A DNA stretch of 64,000 nt from Luteimicrobium subarcticum. GTDB lineage: Bacteria > Actinomycetota > Actinomycetes > Actinomycetales > Cellulomonadaceae. Under the pieces are notes generated by a model. The model saw only the letters and a program-made list of their open reading frames with translations. It ran no database searches and was not told where the DNA came from. The stretch covers positions 1 to 64,000 of the forward strand of contig NZ_PGTZ01000014.1 in assembly GCF_002798015.1 (NCBI RefSeq), in the 5' to 3' direction. A program made the position numbers and the translations under genes. Every line of letters starts with the position of its first letter. Positions within the stretch are counted from its first letter, which is position 1. Positions 24,797 through 34,724 of the stretch are shown piece after piece.

Positions 24797-27658
24797 TCAG
24801 CCCTGCAGCATCCGCCACACCCGGTCGCGGCTGAACGGCGACTCGGTCGGCCGCACGCCCACCGCGCGACGGATCGCGTTCCCGACCGACGCGACCACGG
24901 GGTTGAACGGCGACTCGCTCATCGACTTGGCGCCGAACGGTCCGAGGTCGTCGGACGTCTCCGCGAAGTAGACCTCCGTGTGCGGCACGTCGGCGAGCTG
25001 CGGCACCCGGTAGCCGCGGAAGGCCGCGTTGACGACGCGTCCCTCGTCGAGCAGCACCTCCTCGAGCAGCGCGCTGCCGAAGCCCTGCGCGACGCCGCCC
25101 TCGACCTGCCCGCGGCACTGCTCCGGGTTCATCACCGTGCCCGCGTCGGCGGCGTGCACGGACTGCAGGACCCTGACCTCGCCCGTCCGGACGTCGACCG
25201 CGACCCGCACGGCGTGGACATCGAACGCGAGCGAACGCAGGACGCCGTCCTCGCGCCCCTCGGCCAGGATGCCCGGCGCGTCGCCCACGTCGTCGCCGAA
25301 AGCGCCCACGAGCGTGCCGAGGACGACGACGCCGACCGGCGTCGCGACGCCGTCCGGCCCGAGCGTGCACTCGCCGACCGGGACGCGCATGAGGGACGCC
25401 GCGTGCTCGACGAGGCGGGCGTGCAGCGCGAGCGCGGCTGCGTGCACCGCCTTACCGGCGACGGTCGTGCCCGCGGACGCGAACGCCCCGGTGTCGTACG
25501 ACGTGGCGTCGGTGTCCGACTGGTGCACGCGCACCCGGTCGGGCGTGGTCGCGAGGGCCGTCGCGGCGATCTGCGTGTGGACGGTCGTCGTCCCGTTGCC
25601 GAACTCGGCGGTCCCGACGCCGATCTCGTAGGTGCCGTCGCCGCGCAGGGTCACGGACGCGACGGCCCGGTGCCCGAACGGCGCCATCGTCGCGATCATG
25701 GCCGCCGCCATGCCCTCGCCGACCCGCCAGTGGTCCCCCGCCGGGACGGGCAGCGGGACCGACCCGTCCGGCGCGGGCTCGCCGGCACGGCCTCGCGCCA
25801 GGGCGTCCTGGGCGAGGTCGAGGCACTGGTCGAAGCCGTACGAGCCCCAGGCGAGGTCGACCTCGTGGTCCTCGTCGGTCGTGCGCACCGGGTCGCCGGG
25901 CCGCACGGCGTTGCGGCGCCGCAGCTCGAACGGGTCGAGGTCGAGGCGCAGCGCCAGCTCGTCGAGCGCCGACTCGACACCCAGCGCCACCTGCCCCAGC
26001 CCGTACCCACGGAACGCGCCCGACGGCGGGTTGTTCGTGTACACGGCGGTGCCGTCGACGCGGACGTCCGTGAACCGGTACAGCGAGATCGACTCCGCGA
26101 CCCCGTGGAACAGCACGCCGCGCGAGTGGTTCCCGTACGCGCCCGCGTCGCTCAGCACGTCCACGTGCAGCGCCGTGAGGGTGCCGTCGGACCGGGCGCC
26201 CACCCGGACGCGGACCCGCATCGGGTGCCGGAACGTCGTCCGGACGAACTCCTCCTCACGCGTCATCTCGTACACGACCCGGCGCCGCAGCCGCAGCGCC
26301 GCCGCGACCACGACGTCCTCGGTGAGCATCTCCTGCTTGCCGCCGAACCCGCCGCCCACGCGCGCCGTGAGCACGCGCACCGCCTCGGGTTCCAGGTCGA
26401 ACACGCGGCACAGCTCGTCCCGCACCAGGAACGGCACCTGCGACGACGTCCGCACCACGAGCCGGCCGTCGTCCGCGAACCACGCGACCGACCCGTGCGT
26501 CTCGAGCTGGGCGTGCGCCACGCGCTGCGTGCGCCAGGTCCCCTCGACCACGACGTCCGAGCCCGCGAGCGCCGCGTCCACGTCCCCGCGCTCGGCGTGG
26601 TGGTCGACGACGACGTTGCGGGCGGCGTCGTCGACGCGGTCGGCCGGGGTGCGGTCCGGGTGCAGGACGGGGGCGCCCGGCGCGCGGGCCTCCTCGGGGT
26701 CGAACACGGCAGGCAGCACCTCGTACTCCACGTCGACCGCGGCGCACCCCGCCTCGGCCGCCGCCGGCGACGACGCGACCACCACCGCGACCCGCTGACC
26801 CACGAACCGGACGGTGTCGTCCAGCAGGACGGTGTCGTCGGGGTCGTCGACGCGGTGCTCGTGCCGCCCCGACGAGTACCGGAACGCGGGCGCGTCCTTG
26901 TGCGTCAGGACGAGCTCGACGCCCGGTACCCGCTGCGCGCGGCTCGTGTCGATCGCCGTGATGCGCGCGTGCGGGTGCGGGCTGCCGAGGACCTTGACGT
27001 GCAGCGCGTCCGACAGGTCGAGGTCCATCGTGAACGGCTCCCGGCCCGCGACGACGCGCCGCGCGGCGGGCGGGTGCACCGATCGGCCGACCGCGGCGTC
27101 GGGCGCCGCCGTCGCCGGACCCCCGCCCGGGCCGCGGGGCGTGGGCGCCGCGTGGGTGCACGCCAGCCGCTCCCCCGCGCACGACGCCTCGACGCCCGCC
27201 CGCACCGCGTCCTCGACGGACCGGTACCCGGTGCAGCGGCACAGGTTGCCCTTGAGGCGGCGGGGCAGGTCGTCGAGGTCCTCCGGGCCGAGCGTCGACG
27301 CCGTGACCACCATGCCCGCGGTGCAGAACCCGCACTGGAACCCGAACCGCTCGACGAAGGCCTCCTGGACGGGGTGCAGGTCGTCCGGCTTGCCGAGCCC
27401 CGACGCCGTCGTGACCTCCTTGCCCGCCGCGCGCGCCGCCGGGAACAGGCACGAGTGGACCGGCAGCCCGTCGACCAGGACCGTGCACGCGCCGCAGTCC
27501 CCGGAGTCGCAGCCCTTCTTGACGTCGTCGTAGCCGTGCTCGCGCAGCAGCGTCCGCAGGCACTGGCCCGGGCGCGGGGTGACCTCGCGCGTCCAGCCGT
27601 CGACCGTGACGCGGAGGCTGCCCGGACCTGCGCCGCGCCGCCCGCTGCCGCCGGTCAC
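24797..27658 (-). CDS. Xanthine dehydrogenase-type molybdoenzyme, fused Fe-S and Mo-binding subunit
   Basis: This 953-aa protein joins two parts that are often separate. Residues 1-160 carry two [2Fe-2S] clusters ([18 protein letters not shown], then [11 protein letters not shown] and [11 protein letters not shown]). From about 190 onward is the aldehyde-oxidase/xanthine-dehydrogenase Mo-binding part, with [12 protein letters not shown], a Gly-rich Moco loop and [15 protein letters not shown] near the end. The order resembles E. coli XdhD. It should hydroxylate a purine or related heterocycle, passing electrons to the FAD subunit. The GTG overlaps the FAD-subunit stop. The active-site Glu is plausible in GAKSMSESP, but I did not assign it. 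Confidence 0.9.
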
Positions 27659-28721: not shown

Positions 28722-29699
28722 TCAGCCCAGCGAGCCGACCCACTCCGCGGAGCCGTCGTCGAAGAACTGCTCCTTCCAGATGGGCACGCGGTGCTTGACC
28801 TCGTCGACGAGCGCCTCGACGGCGTCGAACGACGCGCCCCGGTGCGCGGACGCGACCGCGGCGACGATCGCGACGTCACCGATCCCGAGGTCGCCGTACC
28901 GGTGCACGACGGCGAGCCGCACGTCCGGGTGCGCGCCCGCGACCTCGGCCGCGACGTCGGCGATGACGGCCGTCGCGTCAGGGTGCGCCTCGTAACGCAG
29001 GCGCTCCACACCGCGCCCTTCGTCGTGGTCGCGGACCAGGCCCGTGAACGTCGCGACCGCGCCGCACGTGGCGTCGGCGACCAGCGCGACGAGCTCGTCG
29101 AGGACGCCCGTGAGCGAGGCGTCGACCACCTCGGCCCGCAGCACCCGTTCGGGAGCCGGGACGAGCCCCGCGGCGTCGGACGGGCGCTCGTGGTCGCCGC
29201 GAGCGCCCCCCGCGACCTGGTCGACGGCGTGCCCGAGGACGTCGTCGAGCACGGCCAGCCCGTCCCGCACGCCGCCAGGCGACCCGGGCAGGTTGACGAC
29301 GACCGTGCGTCCGGCGACGCCGGCGAGGCCGCGGCTCAGCACCGCGGTGGGGACGACGTCCGCACCGCGCGCACGGATCGCCGCGGCGAGCCCGGGGAGC
29401 TCGCGGTCGAGCACCGCGGCGGTCTGCTCGGGCGTCGCGTCGGTCGGTGAGACGCCCGTCCCGCCCGTCGTGAGGACGACCTCGACCCCCTGCGCCACGA
29501 GGTCGCGCAGCGCCGCGCCGACGGCGTCGCCGTCCGCGACCACCCGCACGGGACCGACCTGCCAGCCGCGCTCCACGAGCCAGGCCGCGATCACCGGGCC
29601 GGTCGTGTCCACGGCGAGGCCCTGGGCGCCGCGCGTCGACGCGACGACGACTCCCGCCGCCCCGCGCGCCGGGGGCCCGGCGTGCGCCGCGCCGCTCAC
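28722..29699 (-). CDS. Mog/MoaB-MoaE fusion protein (molybdopterin adenylyltransferase + MPT synthase large subunit)
   Basis: This is a 325-aa two-domain protein. Residues about 14-165 form the MogA/MoaB molybdopterin-binding domain (LTTGGTGVSPTDATPEQT, NLPGSPGGVRDGL). Residues about 187-325 form MoaE (ATFTGLVRDHDEG, LRYEAHPDA, HRYGDLGIGD and the catalytic-lysine motif KHRVPIWKEQFFDDG). It would both make molybdopterin with MoaD and adenylate it. The GTG overlaps the moaC stop. Two separate genes are the commoner arrangement, although such fusions occur in actinobacteria. Confidence 0.9.
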   Translation of the reverse strand: MSGAAHAGPPARGAAGVVVASTRGAQGLAVDTTGPVIAAWLVERGWQVGPVRVVADGDAVGAALRDLVAQGVEVVLTTGGTGVSPTDATPEQTAAVLDRELPGLAAAIRARGADVVPTAVLSRGLAGVAGRTVVVNLPGSPGGVRDGLAVLDDVLGHAVDQVAGGARGDHERPSDAAGLVPAPERVLRAEVVDASLTGVLDELVALVADATCGAVATFTGLVRDHDEGRGVERLRYEAHPDATAVIADVAAEVAGAHPDVRLAVVHRYGDLGIGDVAIVAAVASAHRGASFDAVEALVDEVKHRVPIWKEQFFDDGSAEWVGSLG

Positions 29700-30220
29700 G
29701 CCTGCTCCTCGCGGACCCACGTGCCGGTCGTGCCGCCCGACTTCGCGACCACCTGGACGTCCGTCAGCACGGCCGCCCGATCGACGGCCTTGATCATGTC
29801 GTAGACGGTCAGACCCGCCACGGTCACGGCGGTCAACGCCTCCATCTCGACCCCCGTGCGGGACGTCGTGCGGACCGTCGCGGACAGCGCCACGTGGTCG
29901 CCCGACGGGACGACGTCGACGTCGACGCCCGAGATCGGCAGCGGGTGGCACAGCGGCACGAGCTCGTGCGTCCGCTTCGCCGCGAGGATGCCCGCGACCC
30001 GCGCGACCGCGACCGCCTCACCCTTCGGCAGGTCGCCCGTCGCGATCCGCGCCACGACATCGGGGCGCGTGCGCAGCACCGCAGTGGCGGTCGCCTCGCG
30101 GGCCGTGACGTCCTTCGCGGACACGTCCACCATGTGCGCTGCGCCGTCGGCCCGGTAGTGCGTCAGGCCGCCCGCACCGTCCCTGTCGTCCGCGTGCGTC
30201 GCGCGCGTCTCGTCCGTCAT
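29696..30220 (-). CDS. moaC: Cyclic pyranopterin monophosphate synthase MoaC
   Basis: This 174-aa enzyme acts after MoaA in the first step of molybdopterin synthesis. Family motifs are AHMVDVSAKDVTAREATA, KRTHELVPLCHPLPI, GVEMEALTAVTVAGLTVYDM and the C-terminal Lys-rich loop (IKAVDRA, VVAKSGGTTG). The ATG overlaps the moeA stop as ATGA. Its 5' part encodes an acidic and His/Asp-rich extension before the core. Confidence 0.96.
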   Translation of the reverse strand: MTDETRATHADDRDGAGGLTHYRADGAAHMVDVSAKDVTAREATATAVLRTRPDVVARIATGDLPKGEAVAVARVAGILAAKRTHELVPLCHPLPISGVDVDVVPSGDHVALSATVRTTSRTGVEMEALTAVTVAGLTVYDMIKAVDRAAVLTDVQVVAKSGGTTGTWVREEQA

Positions 30221-32391
30221 GCGATCTCCCAGACCTCGACCTCGTCCCCCGCCTCGAGGCGTCGGACGCCGACGGGGACCTGCACGAGGAGCGTAGCCGC
30301 GGCGTAGCGCGCCACGAGGTGCGACCCCGGACCGCCGACGAGCACGACGCGCCCGTCCGCGTCCAGCGCGCCCCGGCGCACCTGGTGCAGGTGCGGCGGC
30401 GAGTCGAGCGGCTCGGCGAGGGTCGCCGTCCACCGCCGACGCTCGGCCGGGACGAGCCCCGCAGCGCGGGCGAGGACCGGCCGCAGGAACGTCTCGAACG
30501 AGACCAGCGCGCTCACGGGGTTGCCGGGGAACGCGACGACAGGGACCGCGGTGCCCTCCGCGTCCGCGGCGACCCGGACGGTGCCGGCGCCCTGCGGGCC
30601 GCCCGGCTGCATCGCGACGTGCCCGAACCAGACGTCCCCCGCCCCGAGCGTCTGCCGCACCACCTCGTACGCGCCCGCGCTCACCCCGCCCGACGTGACG
30701 ACGACGTCCACGTCCGCTGGCACGTCGGCGAGCGCCCGGGCCAGGGCGTCGTCGTCGTCGGGCACCACAGCCGTCGTGACCCGCGCGCCGACCTCCCGGA
30801 GCGCGGCCGCGAGCGCCGCGCCGTTGACGTCCGGGACCTGCGCGGGACCGAGCGACGCGCCGGCCGGGGCGAGCTCGGACCCCGTCGAGACGAGCAGGAC
30901 GTGCGGCGCACGCCGCACCGCGACCTCGGCGACGCCGGCGGCGACCAGCGCGCCGAGCCGCGCCGGACCGAGCCGCTCCCCCGCCCGCACGACCACGTCG
31001 CCCGCCGCGAGATCGCTGCCCGTGGGACGCACGTACGTGCCCGGGGCGAGCGGGTCGCGGACACGCACCACGGACCCGGGATCGACGAAGCGAGCGGGGT
31101 CGGCATCTTCCACGCGCAGCACCACGTCGGCGCCGGCGGGGACGGGCGCACCCGTCATGATCGGCGCGGCCGTGTCGGGCTCGAGCGGCGCCGGGACCGT
31201 GCCCGCGGGAACGGGGTCGACGACCCGGAGCGCGACCGGCCGGTCCGGCGTCGCGCCCGCCACGTCGGCGGCGCGGAGCGCGTACCCGTCCATCTGCGAG
31301 TTCTCGAACACGGGCGAGGGCAGGGCCGCGACCGCGTCGCGCGCGAGCACCGGGGAGCCGTGGGCACCGGTGAGCAGGTCGGCGACGGCGACCACCTCGT
31401 CGCCGCGCGTCGCCAGGGCTGGCTCGACGAGCGCCGCGACGCGGTCCGCGTGGTCGGCCACGGTGCGGGGACGGTCGACGTGCTCCTGCTCGTCCTCCTG
31501 CTCGTGCGCGGGGCGCGCGGCGGACGGCTGCGGCCCGGGGGCGTGGGAGTCGGTCACATCGACGATCGTGCCAGGTGCACGGTCGGGCGTGGTTGCGGCG
31601 CCGTGCCGGGGGCGGTGCGGCGGGTCGTGCGGGTCGGCCACGTCGAGCCACGGCATCCCGGCGAGGAACGCGCTGTGCCGGGCGCCGAGCACCGCCCGGA
31701 CCGGCCCCTGGTCGACGGCCCTTCCCCGCTCGATCACGACGACGTCGTCGGCGAGCGCGAGCACGTCGTCGAGGTCGTGCGTCACGACGACGGCGGTGAG
31801 CCCGCGGAGCACGTCCGCGACGACGCGGCGCAGGCGCGGCACGGACGGCTGGTCGACCGCCACGAACGGCTCGTCGAGCAGCACGACGTCGGGCGCGGCG
31901 GCGAGCGCCCGGGCGAGCGCGACGCGCTGGGCCTGCCCGCCGGAGAGCGAGCCGGGGCGGCGGCGCGCGAGCGTCCCCGCGCCGACGACGTCGAGCCAGT
32001 GGTGCGCCTCCGTGCGCGCCGTCCGGCGTGACGTCCCGGCCGACCGCGGGCCGAACGCGACGTTGCCGGTGCACGTGAGGTGGCCGAACAGGACGGGACG
32101 CTGCTCGAGCAGGCCCACGGCGCGGCGGTGCGCCGGGACGAGGACGCCCGTGGCGGTGTCGGTGAGAGCGCGCTCGCCGACGGCCACGCGCGCGACCGGG
32201 GGCACGTAGAGTCCGGCGACGGTCTGCAGGAGGGTCGACTTGCCGGCGCCGTTGGGCCCGACGACGGCGAGCGTGCGCCCCGCGGCCACGGTCACGTCGA
32301 GCCGGACGTCGCGACCGGCGTCGTCGATCGTGACCACGAGCGCGGACGCGGCGGGCGAACCGGACGGCGCGGCGGGCGAGCGGGGGGTCAT
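30217..32391 (-). CDS. ModC-MoeA fusion: molybdate ABC ATPase joined to molybdopterin molybdotransferase
   Basis: This is one uninterrupted 724-codon frame. Residues about 18-250 are an ABC ATPase: Walker A VVGPNGAGKSTLLQT, signature SLSGGQAQRVALARAL, Walker B VVLLDEPFVAVD and H-loop VVVTHDLDD. It lacks the C-terminal Mop domain of usual ModC. A hydrophilic linker (about 251-309) leads into full-length MoeA: PVFENSQMDGYALRAAD, PIMTGAPVPAGADVVL, TSGGVSAGAYEVV and FPGNPVSALVSFETF. A GTG at 31557 could start MoeA alone, but it has no Shine-Dalgarno sequence or -10 element. The ATG overlaps the modB stop. Uptake ATPase and Mo-insertion enzyme in one chain is unusual. Confidence 0.85.
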   Translation of the reverse strand: MTPRSPAAPSGSPAASALVVTIDDAGRDVRLDVTVAAGRTLAVVGPNGAGKSTLLQTVAGLYVPPVARVAVGERALTDTATGVLVPAHRRAVGLLEQRPVLFGHLTCTGNVAFGPRSAGTSRRTARTEAHHWLDVVGAGTLARRRPGSLSGGQAQRVALARALAAAPDVVLLDEPFVAVDQPSVPRLRRVVADVLRGLTAVVVTHDLDDVLALADDVVVIERGRAVDQGPVRAVLGARHSAFLAGMPWLDVADPHDPPHRPRHGAATTPDRAPGTIVDVTDSHAPGPQPSAARPAHEQEDEQEHVDRPRTVADHADRVAALVEPALATRGDEVVAVADLLTGAHGSPVLARDAVAALPSPVFENSQMDGYALRAADVAGATPDRPVALRVVDPVPAGTVPAPLEPDTAAPIMTGAPVPAGADVVLRVEDADPARFVDPGSVVRVRDPLAPGTYVRPTGSDLAAGDVVVRAGERLGPARLGALVAAGVAEVAVRRAPHVLLVSTGSELAPAGASLGPAQVPDVNGAALAAALREVGARVTTAVVPDDDDALARALADVPADVDVVVTSGGVSAGAYEVVRQTLGAGDVWFGHVAMQPGGPQGAGTVRVAADAEGTAVPVVAFPGNPVSALVSFETFLRPVLARAAGLVPAERRRWTATLAEPLDSPPHLHQVRRGALDADGRVVLVGGPGSHLVARYAAATLLVQVPVGVRRLEAGDEVEVWEIA

Positions 32392-33320
32392 GCGCGGTCC
32401 TTCGGTGCGGGGGCGTCGGCGGCGTGGGCCGAGGGCGGGTCGTCGGACAGGGTGTCGGACGAGGTCTCGGCGCCGCGCAGGCTCGTGCGCACGCCCGCGC
32501 GCAGCGACGACGTGCCGCCCGCCGCGTACACGACGAGGACGATCACGACCGCGACCCCGACGAGCAGCATGGACAGCGCGACGGCGGCGTCGGGGTCGAC
32601 CTCACGCTGGAGGTACACCTCGAGCGGCAGGGTGCGGGTGACACCCTGGAGCGAGCCCGCGAACGTCAGGGTGGCCCCGAACTCGCCGAGCGACCGGGCG
32701 AGCGCGAGGAGCGCACCGGCTGCGAGGCCGGGCGCCATGGCGGGCAGCGTGACGTGCGTGAACACGCGCCCTGGCCGCGCACCGAGGGTCGCGGCGGCGC
32801 GCTCCTCGCGGTCGCCGCGCACGCGCAGGGCTCCCTCGACGGACAGCACGAGGAACGGCATCGCGACGAACGCCTGGGCGATCACGACCGCCGTCGTCGA
32901 GAACGCGACGGTGATCCCGAGGTGGCCGAGCAGCTCCCCCACCGGGCCCCGGCGCCCGAACGCGGCGAGCAGCGCGAGGCCCGAGACCACGGGCGGCAGC
33001 ACGAGCGGGAGCAGGACGACCGCACGCACGACCTCCTTGCCCCAGAACCGCGACCGGGCGAGGACCACCCCGACGGGCACGCCGAGCACGATGACGACGG
33101 CCGTGGCCACCAGCGCCGTCTCGACCGAGAGCCGCAGGGCCGCGCGCGAGCTCTCGTCCGTCACGAGCGACCAGAACTGTCCCCACCTGACGCGCGACGC
33201 GAGCACGACGACGGGCAGCACGAGGTACGCCACCCCGAGCGCCCCGAGCACGAGCACCCAGGCCGGGGCGCGCGGTCCGACCACGCGCCCCCGGCCCTGC
33301 GGCGTCGGCGGGCGCGTCAC
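32388..33320 (-). CDS. modB: Molybdate ABC transporter permease ModB
   Basis: This 310-aa membrane protein has about six hydrophobic segments and ModB-like motifs: VLPPVVSGLALLAAFGRRGPVG and ATLGARPGRVFTHVTLPAMAPGLAAG, the EAA loop; SLGEFGATLTFAGSLQGVTRTLPLEVYL is diagnostic of the ModB/CysT group. The GTG at 33320 is 10 nt after the modA stop. A GTG at 33347 overlapping modA would add nine residues. It has a longer polar C-terminal tail than usual. Confidence 0.93.
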   Translation of the reverse strand: MTRPPTPQGRGRVVGPRAPAWVLVLGALGVAYLVLPVVVLASRVRWGQFWSLVTDESSRAALRLSVETALVATAVVIVLGVPVGVVLARSRFWGKEVVRAVVLLPLVLPPVVSGLALLAAFGRRGPVGELLGHLGITVAFSTTAVVIAQAFVAMPFLVLSVEGALRVRGDREERAAATLGARPGRVFTHVTLPAMAPGLAAGALLALARSLGEFGATLTFAGSLQGVTRTLPLEVYLQREVDPDAAVALSMLLVGVAVVIVLVVYAAGGTSSLRAGVRTSLRGAETSSDTLSDDPPSAHAADAPAPKDRA

Positions 33321-33330
33321 GGTGCCGTCG

Positions 33331-34194
33331 TCACTTCGCGGTCGCACCGGGCGTGACGTTCGGGGTGCGCGGCACCCCGCTCCTCGTCGGCTCGCCGAAC
33401 CCGGCGTCGGCGAGCACCTGCTGGCCCGCGTCGGACAGGACGTACGTCTCGAAGTCCTCGGCGAGCCCCGTCTTGCCGCCCTTCACGGGTGCGATCGGGT
33501 ACGTGTTGACGACCGACTTCGACTCGGGGAAGTCGACCCGGGTGATTGACCCGGGGTCGGCCGCGAGCGCGCCCTGCGCGTCGGTCACGTAGACGAGACC
33601 GGCGTCGGCCTCGCCCGAGGTGACCTTGGCGAGCACGTCGGTGACCTTCGACTCCTCGCTCACGGGCGCGATGGTCACGCCCGTGACCTGCTCGAGCTGC
33701 GTCGCGGCCGCGCCGCACGGCACCTGCGGCGCGCACACGACGACCTTGAGGTCGGGGTTCGCGAGGTCTTGGAACGAGGTCACGTGGCCGGGGTTGTCGG
33801 ACGGCGTCACGATCGTCATGGTGTTCGACGCGAACGCCTGGGGGGTCTGCGCGGTGAGGCCGGCATCCGCGAGCGTGTTCATGTTCGCCTCGTCCGCCGA
33901 CGCGAAGACGTCGGCTGGCGCTCCCTCGCTGATCTGCGAGACGAGGTCCGACGAGCCCGCGAACGACAGCTGGACGTGGACGCCGGGGTGGTCCTTCTCG
34001 AACCCGTCGGCGATCTCGGTGAACGACGTCGTGAGCGAGGCCGCCGCGAAGACCGTGAGCGTCTGGGACGAGCCCGCCGTCTGCGTGCCGGACGCGCTCG
34101 AGCCGCTGTCTTCGGAGCTGCTGCAGGCGGCGGTGAGCACGAGCGCCGCGGCGCCGCCCAGAGCGAGGACGCCGCGCAGGGTGGGGGTGTTCAT
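33331..34194 (-). CDS. modA: Molybdate-binding lipoprotein ModA
   Basis: This 287-aa binding protein is anchored by a lipobox (LVLTAAC near residue 24). The mature region LTVFAAASLTTSFTEIADGFEK is the standard ModA opening, in which Ser residues bind the oxyanion. VQLSFAGSSDLVSQISEGAPADVFASAD and EADAGLVYVTDA follow family order. The ATG overlaps the stop of the upstream regulator (ATGA), and GAAGGGA lies 6 nt upstream. Tungstate is also possible as a ligand. Confidence 0.95.
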   Translation of the reverse strand: MNTPTLRGVLALGGAAALVLTAACSSSEDSGSSASGTQTAGSSQTLTVFAAASLTTSFTEIADGFEKDHPGVHVQLSFAGSSDLVSQISEGAPADVFASADEANMNTLADAGLTAQTPQAFASNTMTIVTPSDNPGHVTSFQDLANPDLKVVVCAPQVPCGAAATQLEQVTGVTIAPVSEESKVTDVLAKVTSGEADAGLVYVTDAQGALAADPGSITRVDFPESKSVVNTYPIAPVKGGKTGLAEDFETYVLSDAGQQVLADAGFGEPTRSGVPRTPNVTPGATAK

Positions 34195-34589
34195 CCGAGT
34201 CCCTTCGGGGTGTCGATCATGACCGACGTCGCCTTGACGACGGCCGTGGCGAGCGTGCCGACCTCGAGCCCCAGCTCGTGGGCCGACTCCGCGCTGATGA
34301 GCGAGACGATGCGGTGGGGTCCGGCCTGGACCTCGACCTGCGCCATGACGCCGTCGACGGTGACCGCGGTGACGAGGCCGACGAACCGGTTGCGGGCAGA
34401 CCCGGCGCCGCCGTCGCCGGGTGCCCCGGACCGGTCGCGGAGGTACGTCGCGAGCGATGCACCGTCGAGGACGAGGTGGCCGGAGGCGTCCGTGGAGCCG
34501 TCGATCGACCCCGCGGCGACCTGTCGTCGCACGGTGTCGTCGCTGACCCCGAGGAGGCGTGCGGCCTCGTGGACCCGCAGTTGCGTCAT
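34191..34589 (-). CDS. HTH plus Mop/TOBE-domain molybdate-responsive regulator
   Basis: This 132-aa protein has an N-terminal MerR/excisionase-like helix-turn-helix (LRVHEAARLLGVSDDTVRRQV) and a single C-terminal Mop/TOBE domain (ARNRFVGLVTAVTVDGVMAQVEV, SAESAHELGLEVGTLATAVVKATSVMI) that binds molybdate. It is a compact alternative to ModE and is the first gene of the molybdenum operon, so autoregulation of the operon is likely. An upstream in-frame extension to 34715 is rejected because TAGAGT lies 7 nt before the ATG at 34589, indicating leaderless initiation. Confidence 0.88.
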   Translation of the reverse strand: MTQLRVHEAARLLGVSDDTVRRQVAAGSIDGSTDASGHLVLDGASLATYLRDRSGAPGDGGAGSARNRFVGLVTAVTVDGVMAQVEVQAGPHRIVSLISAESAHELGLEVGTLATAVVKATSVMIDTPKGLG

Positions 34590-34724
34590 GAGGAGGACTC
34601 TAGCGTCGCACCTGCGGCTTGGAAGCAACTTCCCGCATTGCGAAGAGGCGACGTTCCGCCGATCGACGCCCGCTTTGCCCCGACCCGCGGCCGGAGCATC
34701 CGTGATCCGGGGCACAATCGGTCC
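34590..34724. promoter_or_regulatory. Divergent promoter region of the molybdenum operon and moaA
   Basis: Minus strand: TAGAGT (34602-34597) is followed by 7 nt and the regulator ATG. Plus strand: CACAAT (34713-34718) is followed by 6 nt and the moaA ATG. GGAAG-CAA-CTTCC (34621-34633) is a small inverted repeat that could be the regulator's binding site. Confidence 0.45.

Follow-up and report, generated by a model that had tools for sequence, protein, structure and literature searches.

Molybdenum insertases of the MoeA type are known to occur joined to neighbors in their own pathway. Examples include gephyrin and Cnx1, where the partner is MogA, the MobB–MoeA proteins (PRK14491), and archaeal MoeA-PBP, whose C-terminal PBP-like domain bears no more than a resemblance to part of a transporter (PMC11733289, PMC13197769). 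Physical coupling of the insertase to the supply of molybdate has been described in plants, where Cnx1 is reported to contact molybdate transporters (PMC11434336). On the transport side, a ModC from Methanosarcina acetivorans is reported to carry a dimeric tail that, with molybdate bound, shuts off transport (PMC10710835). Here, we describe a gene from Luteimicrobium subarcticum that encodes a ModC-type ATPase and MoeA in one protein of 724 amino acids. The window in which it lies is a stretch of 64,000 nucleotides (contig NZ_PGTZ01000014.1, positions 1 to 64,000), and all window coordinates given below refer to features on the reverse strand. Judging from the genomes compared, the fusion (30217–32391) is real and is kept across relatives. 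We put at roughly 70% the probability that it is a genuine bifunctional protein, in which a flexible linker tethers MoeA to the ATPase of a ModABC importer in place of the TOBE domain.

Domain content and operon of the fused gene

The gene starts with ATG and runs as a single stop-free frame of 724 codons. Pfam assigned ABC_tran to residues 31–176, MoeA_N to 311–486, MoCF_biosynth to 501–641, and MoeA_C to 655–722, all above cut-off, and found no TOBE domain in the 724 residues. The initial annotation, made from the letters alone, had read one open frame consisting of an ATPase without Mop domain, a polar linker, and MoeA, and this reading is borne out. The ATPase part comprises residues 1–245 (31657–32391; Pfam ABC_tran and TIGR02142), a linker of 63 codons follows (residues 246–308; 31468–31656) that is mostly predicted to be disordered, and the MoeA part, delimited by Pfam and NCBIfam profiles and residue alignment, comprises residues 309–724 (30220–31467). 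In an AlphaFold model, the ATPase and MoeA domains mostly have pLDDT values above 85, residues 256–305 fall below 50, and the pTM is 0.57; therefore, no fixed arrangement of the two domains is predicted.

The N-terminal half contains an intact ABC ATPase domain according to both Pfam and AlphaFold, with the motifs GPNGAGKST, LSGGQ, LLDEP, and THD, of which we take the first three to be Walker A, the signature, and Walker B. Against TIGR02142 (modC_ABC), it scores 155.6 bits, below the cut-off of 285.05, with profile positions 13–223 of 353 matched, and the C-terminal Mop/TOBE stretch typical of ModC is absent, with MoeA in its place. A PhnT2 model scores 156.3 bits, level with modC_ABC and likewise far below cut-off; we therefore use the name ModC on the strength of the operon, where modA and modB are both present. 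Like the ModC of ModABC systems, the fused ATPase stands in the order modA-modB-modC, beside the only ModB of the genome that exceeds the TIGR02141 cut-off (32388–33347). The stop of modB and the start of the fused gene share an ATGA. Upstream of modB are ModA, the molybdate-binding protein (33331–34194; Pfam and NCBIfam profiles), and, at the head of the operon, a small regulator (34191–34715) with a TOBE/Mop domain, an HTH_17 score of 26.4 bits (cut-off 27), and a TIGR00638 score of 54.5 bits (cut-off 55). The initial annotation had located the Mop domain missing from ModC in this regulator. Its presence there was confirmed by Pfam, while relocation from ModC to the regulator was rejected, as the regulator and a TOBE-bearing ModC coexist in two other loci (L044 and L046). 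Downstream of the fused gene, a second ATGA joins its stop to the start of MoaC (29696–30220), which we named by reading the protein, and this is followed by a frame that matches profiles of both MogA/MoaB-like proteins and MoaE (28722–29807). In several loci of another family, e.g., those of Frigoribacterium (L089) and Agreia (L096), the MogA/MoaB-like protein and MoaE are in different frames.

A single ModB over the TIGR02141 cut-off, adjoining the fused gene, was found in each of the seven genomes searched (a set that leaves G001 aside). The fusion is therefore probably the motor of a ModABC importer, and, in genomes that carry it, probably that of the main one. The window also carries genes for molybdenum enzymes, and the cofactor is therefore needed. 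Among these is a xanthine-dehydrogenase-type protein (24797–27658) in which the 2Fe-2S part runs straight into the molybdenum subunit, with the FAD-binding subunit encoded by its own adjoining gene.

Occurrence among relatives and origin

A search of 221 genomes of the family gave matches at 1e-45 in 181, and we mapped the operon genes around moeA at 66 loci, namely the window, 36 among the first 40 stretches, and 29 more, of which two were picked for long matches and the rest were spread over other genera. In 7 of the 66, modC lies directly upstream of moeA; three of these are in Luteimicrobium, the genus of the window, and four in a second genus, g9 (G140, G151, G152, and G153). The whole fusion is unbroken in two Luteimicrobium loci (G000 and G002) and three of genus g9 (G151, G152, and G153). 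G140 keeps the frame across the junction, with ModC interrupted at an ambiguous base. In G001, a run of C in the linker has one base fewer than in G002, which breaks the frame. The G001 assembly, a single contig, has an estimated completeness of 81%, and the second moeA copy there (L007) likewise falls in two frames when set against that of G002. Because of this, the one-base deletion is probably a sequencing error, and the assembly probably holds indel errors. The initial annotation had named a stop between the domains in close relatives as the finding that would speak against a fusion. No stop or frame break was found at six of the seven family junctions, and conservation of the frame thus stands apart from G001, whose deletion is most likely an artifact.

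The linker looks coding by its GC content at codon positions 1, 2, and 3 (0.86, 0.56, and 0.90), which resembles that of the flanking ModC (0.83, 0.56, and 0.97) and MoeA parts (0.87, 0.55, and 0.94). In the window sequence alone, an open linker is not decisive, because one of the two other same-strand frames is likewise stop-free across it. Among relatives, the linkers of the six in-frame family junctions are 63, 43, 45, 44, 36, and 24 codons long between matching landmarks. Conservation of the frame across these unequal lengths led us to reject a chance open frame.

Beyond the family, a search of 396 genomes of the order (matches to 1e-70) revealed an eighth, diverged fusion, G350, in another family. 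It is 49% identical over residues 14–723, contains no stop, and has a linker of 76 codons as measured from a different ModC landmark. G350 was the sole fusion match among 60 genomes of its own genus and in overlapping samples of its own family (299 genomes, and 398 with the G350 protein as query). The fusion was not found in 295 genomes of family f6, in 198 genomes of the phylum (matches to 1e-80), or among plasmids at 1e-40. Outside the known loci, matches that reached in front of residue 245 were inspected for an upstream ModC, and none was found in the stretches covered (that of G849 is cut off by a contig end): all 10 in the 398-genome sample apart from G350, G613 and G742 from the 299-genome sample, all five from f6, and G094 and G084 from the family search. 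These searches beyond the family are samples with E-value limits, and rarer or more diverged fusions may escape them. With broader ModC queries, four family loci (L035, L041, L065, and L231) showed an ABC match ahead of moeA in the same orientation, at distances of 1.1 to 2.9 kb; we did not count these as adjacent modC–moeA pairs. Of 80 named loci, three have a ModC gene immediately ahead of MoeA in the same orientation. One of these, L126 (Luteimicrobium xylanilyticum HY-24, NZ_CP045529.1), is the G002 fusion again. In Microbacterium memoriense (L094), the stop of an unfused, TOBE-less modC overlaps the moeA start (ATGA), and a GGAGG precedes this overlap. In a Leucobacter (L162), a moaD-like stretch, recognized by eye, lies between ModC and MoeA.

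For the ModC tree, unfused ModC proteins were trimmed before the TOBE tail (alignment A3), since the preceding alignment, A2, had set TOBE tails against MoeA. The ATPase halves of the family fusions, with the partial G140 row among them, group here as one clade (95/94), which G350 adjoins on a long branch at 81/86; G028 is a distant row, and branches are long for G028, G350, G012, and G000. The MoeA tree places the fused proteins of genus g9, four in all, among unfused MoeA of the same genus (96/93); the Luteimicrobium rows branch below g9, and G000 stands apart from G001 and G002 (91/81). The fused state requires four changes on this tree, at least three of which are forced by well-supported branches. 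Since the fused MoeA proteins do not form one group, we consider two scenarios. Either there was one old fusion, and other species later lost or replaced its transporter half, or neighboring TOBE-less modC and moeA genes fused repeatedly. The arrangement in L094 is a plausible state before fusion. A TOBE-less modC could have been coupled translationally to moeA by such an overlap and then joined to it through a small frame-changing event.

A rival reading is that the fusion is real but neutral, i.e., that a lost stop or a frame slip between coupled genes tethered the two proteins with no effect beyond synthesis at a 1:1 ratio. We regard this as a serious alternative, though one with odds clearly below even. 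An unfused neighbor state with ATGA coupling exists in L094, the fusion is absent from 13 of 17 mapped g9 loci and from all four mapped loci of genus g24, and the linkers diverge freely and vary in length. Amino-acid-changing and silent codons in the linker number 3 and 3, 13 and 10, 11 and 9, and 6 and 7 in four comparisons, so that changing codons are at least as frequent as silent ones in three of the four. Linker residues are therefore little constrained, unlike the ModC and MoeA parts, where silent changes predominate. Differences at codon positions 1, 2, and 3 of the linker (2, 1, and 4; 11, 8, and 19; 7, 10, and 15; 4, 6, and 12) are most numerous at the third position in all four comparisons, a weak sign of coding constraint given that counts are small and the comparisons share sequences. 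What speaks against neutrality is that the frame has survived several length changes, in two genera and in G350 from another family. Two further features of the linkers were noted by eye. The linker of G350 contains a perfect 20-base inverted repeat (L084:8203–8259), and the G153 fusion (L033) carries three similar Gly/Pro-rich inserts in linker and MoeA (ISGPDRPGSGG, LSGAGDPGGS, and LSGPGPGIPG), perhaps a repeat element that has spread in coding sequence.

The MoeA half, the missing TOBE tail, and internal starts

The C-terminal half has all three MoeA domains above their Pfam cut-offs (PF03453, PF00994, and PF03454). Its best family is the actinobacterial MoeA (MoeA_actino, NF050098), from which it differs in being attached to an ATPase. 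The score of about 391–393 bits does not reach the curated cut-off of 560; as the unfused MoeA of a relative, L035, scores alike (392 bits), the fusion is not the cause. We also considered Glp, the FtsZ-binding paralogue of MoeA, and rejected it, with about 338–341 bits on NF045515 being below both the cut-off of 475 and the MoeA_actino score. Compared with E. coli MoeA (numbering from the alignment), D59, T100, D142, E188, and D228 are kept, while D259, K275, and K279 are replaced by E, H, and Q, respectively; we take all eight to be residues of the catalytic cleft or active site. The Q at the position of K279 (residue 290 of the first row) is invariant in all 14 MoeA proteins of alignment A1, fused or unfused, and is thus a trait of this MoeA group rather than of the fusion. 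In Cnx1E, the lysine K294 is reported to contribute to the binding of molybdate (PMC13262936), and from our reading of the KPGK motif it would correspond to K279. With this lysine replaced by Q, catalysis by the fused MoeA is not assured. The genome of the window also has a second MoeA, which shares a frame of 747 amino acids with a MobA-like domain of the NTP transferase type (L006:619–2862, reverse strand, contig C8), and the fusion is thus perhaps not its only insertase.

Could the fused MoeA be mainly a regulatory tail that replaces TOBE and slows transport when molybdate or a cofactor precursor builds up? MoeA does sit where all five unfused family ModC proteins tested have a TOBE tail, whereas none of the four fusion proteins tested has one by Pfam. 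M. acetivorans ModC offers a precedent for a tail that inhibits transport on molybdate binding (PMC10710835), and the molybdate-binding lysine is not conserved in the fusion. However, five cleft residues (D59, T100, D142, E188, and D228) are kept. In addition, two unfused ModC proteins from other families (L094 and L162) lack TOBE and have no MoeA attached, leaving TOBE in five of seven unfused ModC proteins overall, so loss of TOBE needs no replacement. We find a mainly regulatory role quite unlikely.

The initial annotation had also weighed a separate moeA start at a GTG codon (residue 279; 31555–31557), which has no Shine-Dalgarno match, and its remark that a good internal ribosome-binding site is missing agrees with our analysis: the start codons in the window linker (one ATG and two GTG) each have a Shine-Dalgarno match of three bases or fewer. 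The linker of G152 has no ATG, GTG, or TTG, and that of G350 has three ATG codons, one with GGAG five bases upstream, from which an extra, free MoeA is possible. In most members of the fusion, a separate start of MoeA is unlikely. That two proteins are made, either from a chance read-through frame with a MoeA start inside the linker or by cleavage of the chain, is the least probable explanation. The GTG at 31557 and the G350 ATG behind GGAG would fit it; against it speak the start-free linker of G152, the weak candidates in the window, and the unbroken loci, where modC lacks a separate stop and translation must continue into MoeA.

Proposed working and comparison with known systems

We return to a bifunctional importer-insertase as the preferred reading, and infer a single mature polypeptide with both activities. 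Its N-terminal half would power molybdate import as the ATPase of ModABC, and its C-terminal half would be MoeA, the presumed catalyst of molybdate insertion into molybdopterin-AMP. A pair of fusion chains would assemble under the ModB dimer and thereby place a MoeA dimer below each transporter, at the position of the dimeric tail in the ModC of M. acetivorans. Imported molybdate would then meet MoeA at a raised local concentration, which would be the simplest benefit of the arrangement. A molybdate-dependent brake of the kind that ModC tails can provide would be gone or replaced. In a more speculative version, which we think unlikely, the MoeA dimer replaces the regulatory dimer under the importer, and the cofactor enzyme itself acts as the brake, so that transport is gated by demand for the cofactor.

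The fusion offers a natural and genetically simple test of direct molybdate hand-over from importer to insertase. It also places an enzyme at the position of the regulatory tail of an ABC importer, with an apparent unfused intermediate available for comparison. No ModC–MoeA fusion was found in the accessible parts of the open-licence literature, supplements aside (including PMC11733289, PMC13197769, PMC11237513, PMC11434336, and PMC13262936). Both halves belong to well-known families, and, by the literature searched, it is their joining that appears to be new. In gephyrin and Cnx1, MobB–MoeA, and archaeal MoeA-PBP, MoeA is likewise one part of a longer chain; in the present fusion, the partner is a transporter ATPase, and it is N-terminal. 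Coupling of importer and insertase in plants has been reported as contacts between separate proteins, with transporters of the MOT1/MOT2 type (PMC11434336), whereas in Luteimicrobium and its relatives the ATPase of an ABC importer and the insertase are encoded in one frame.
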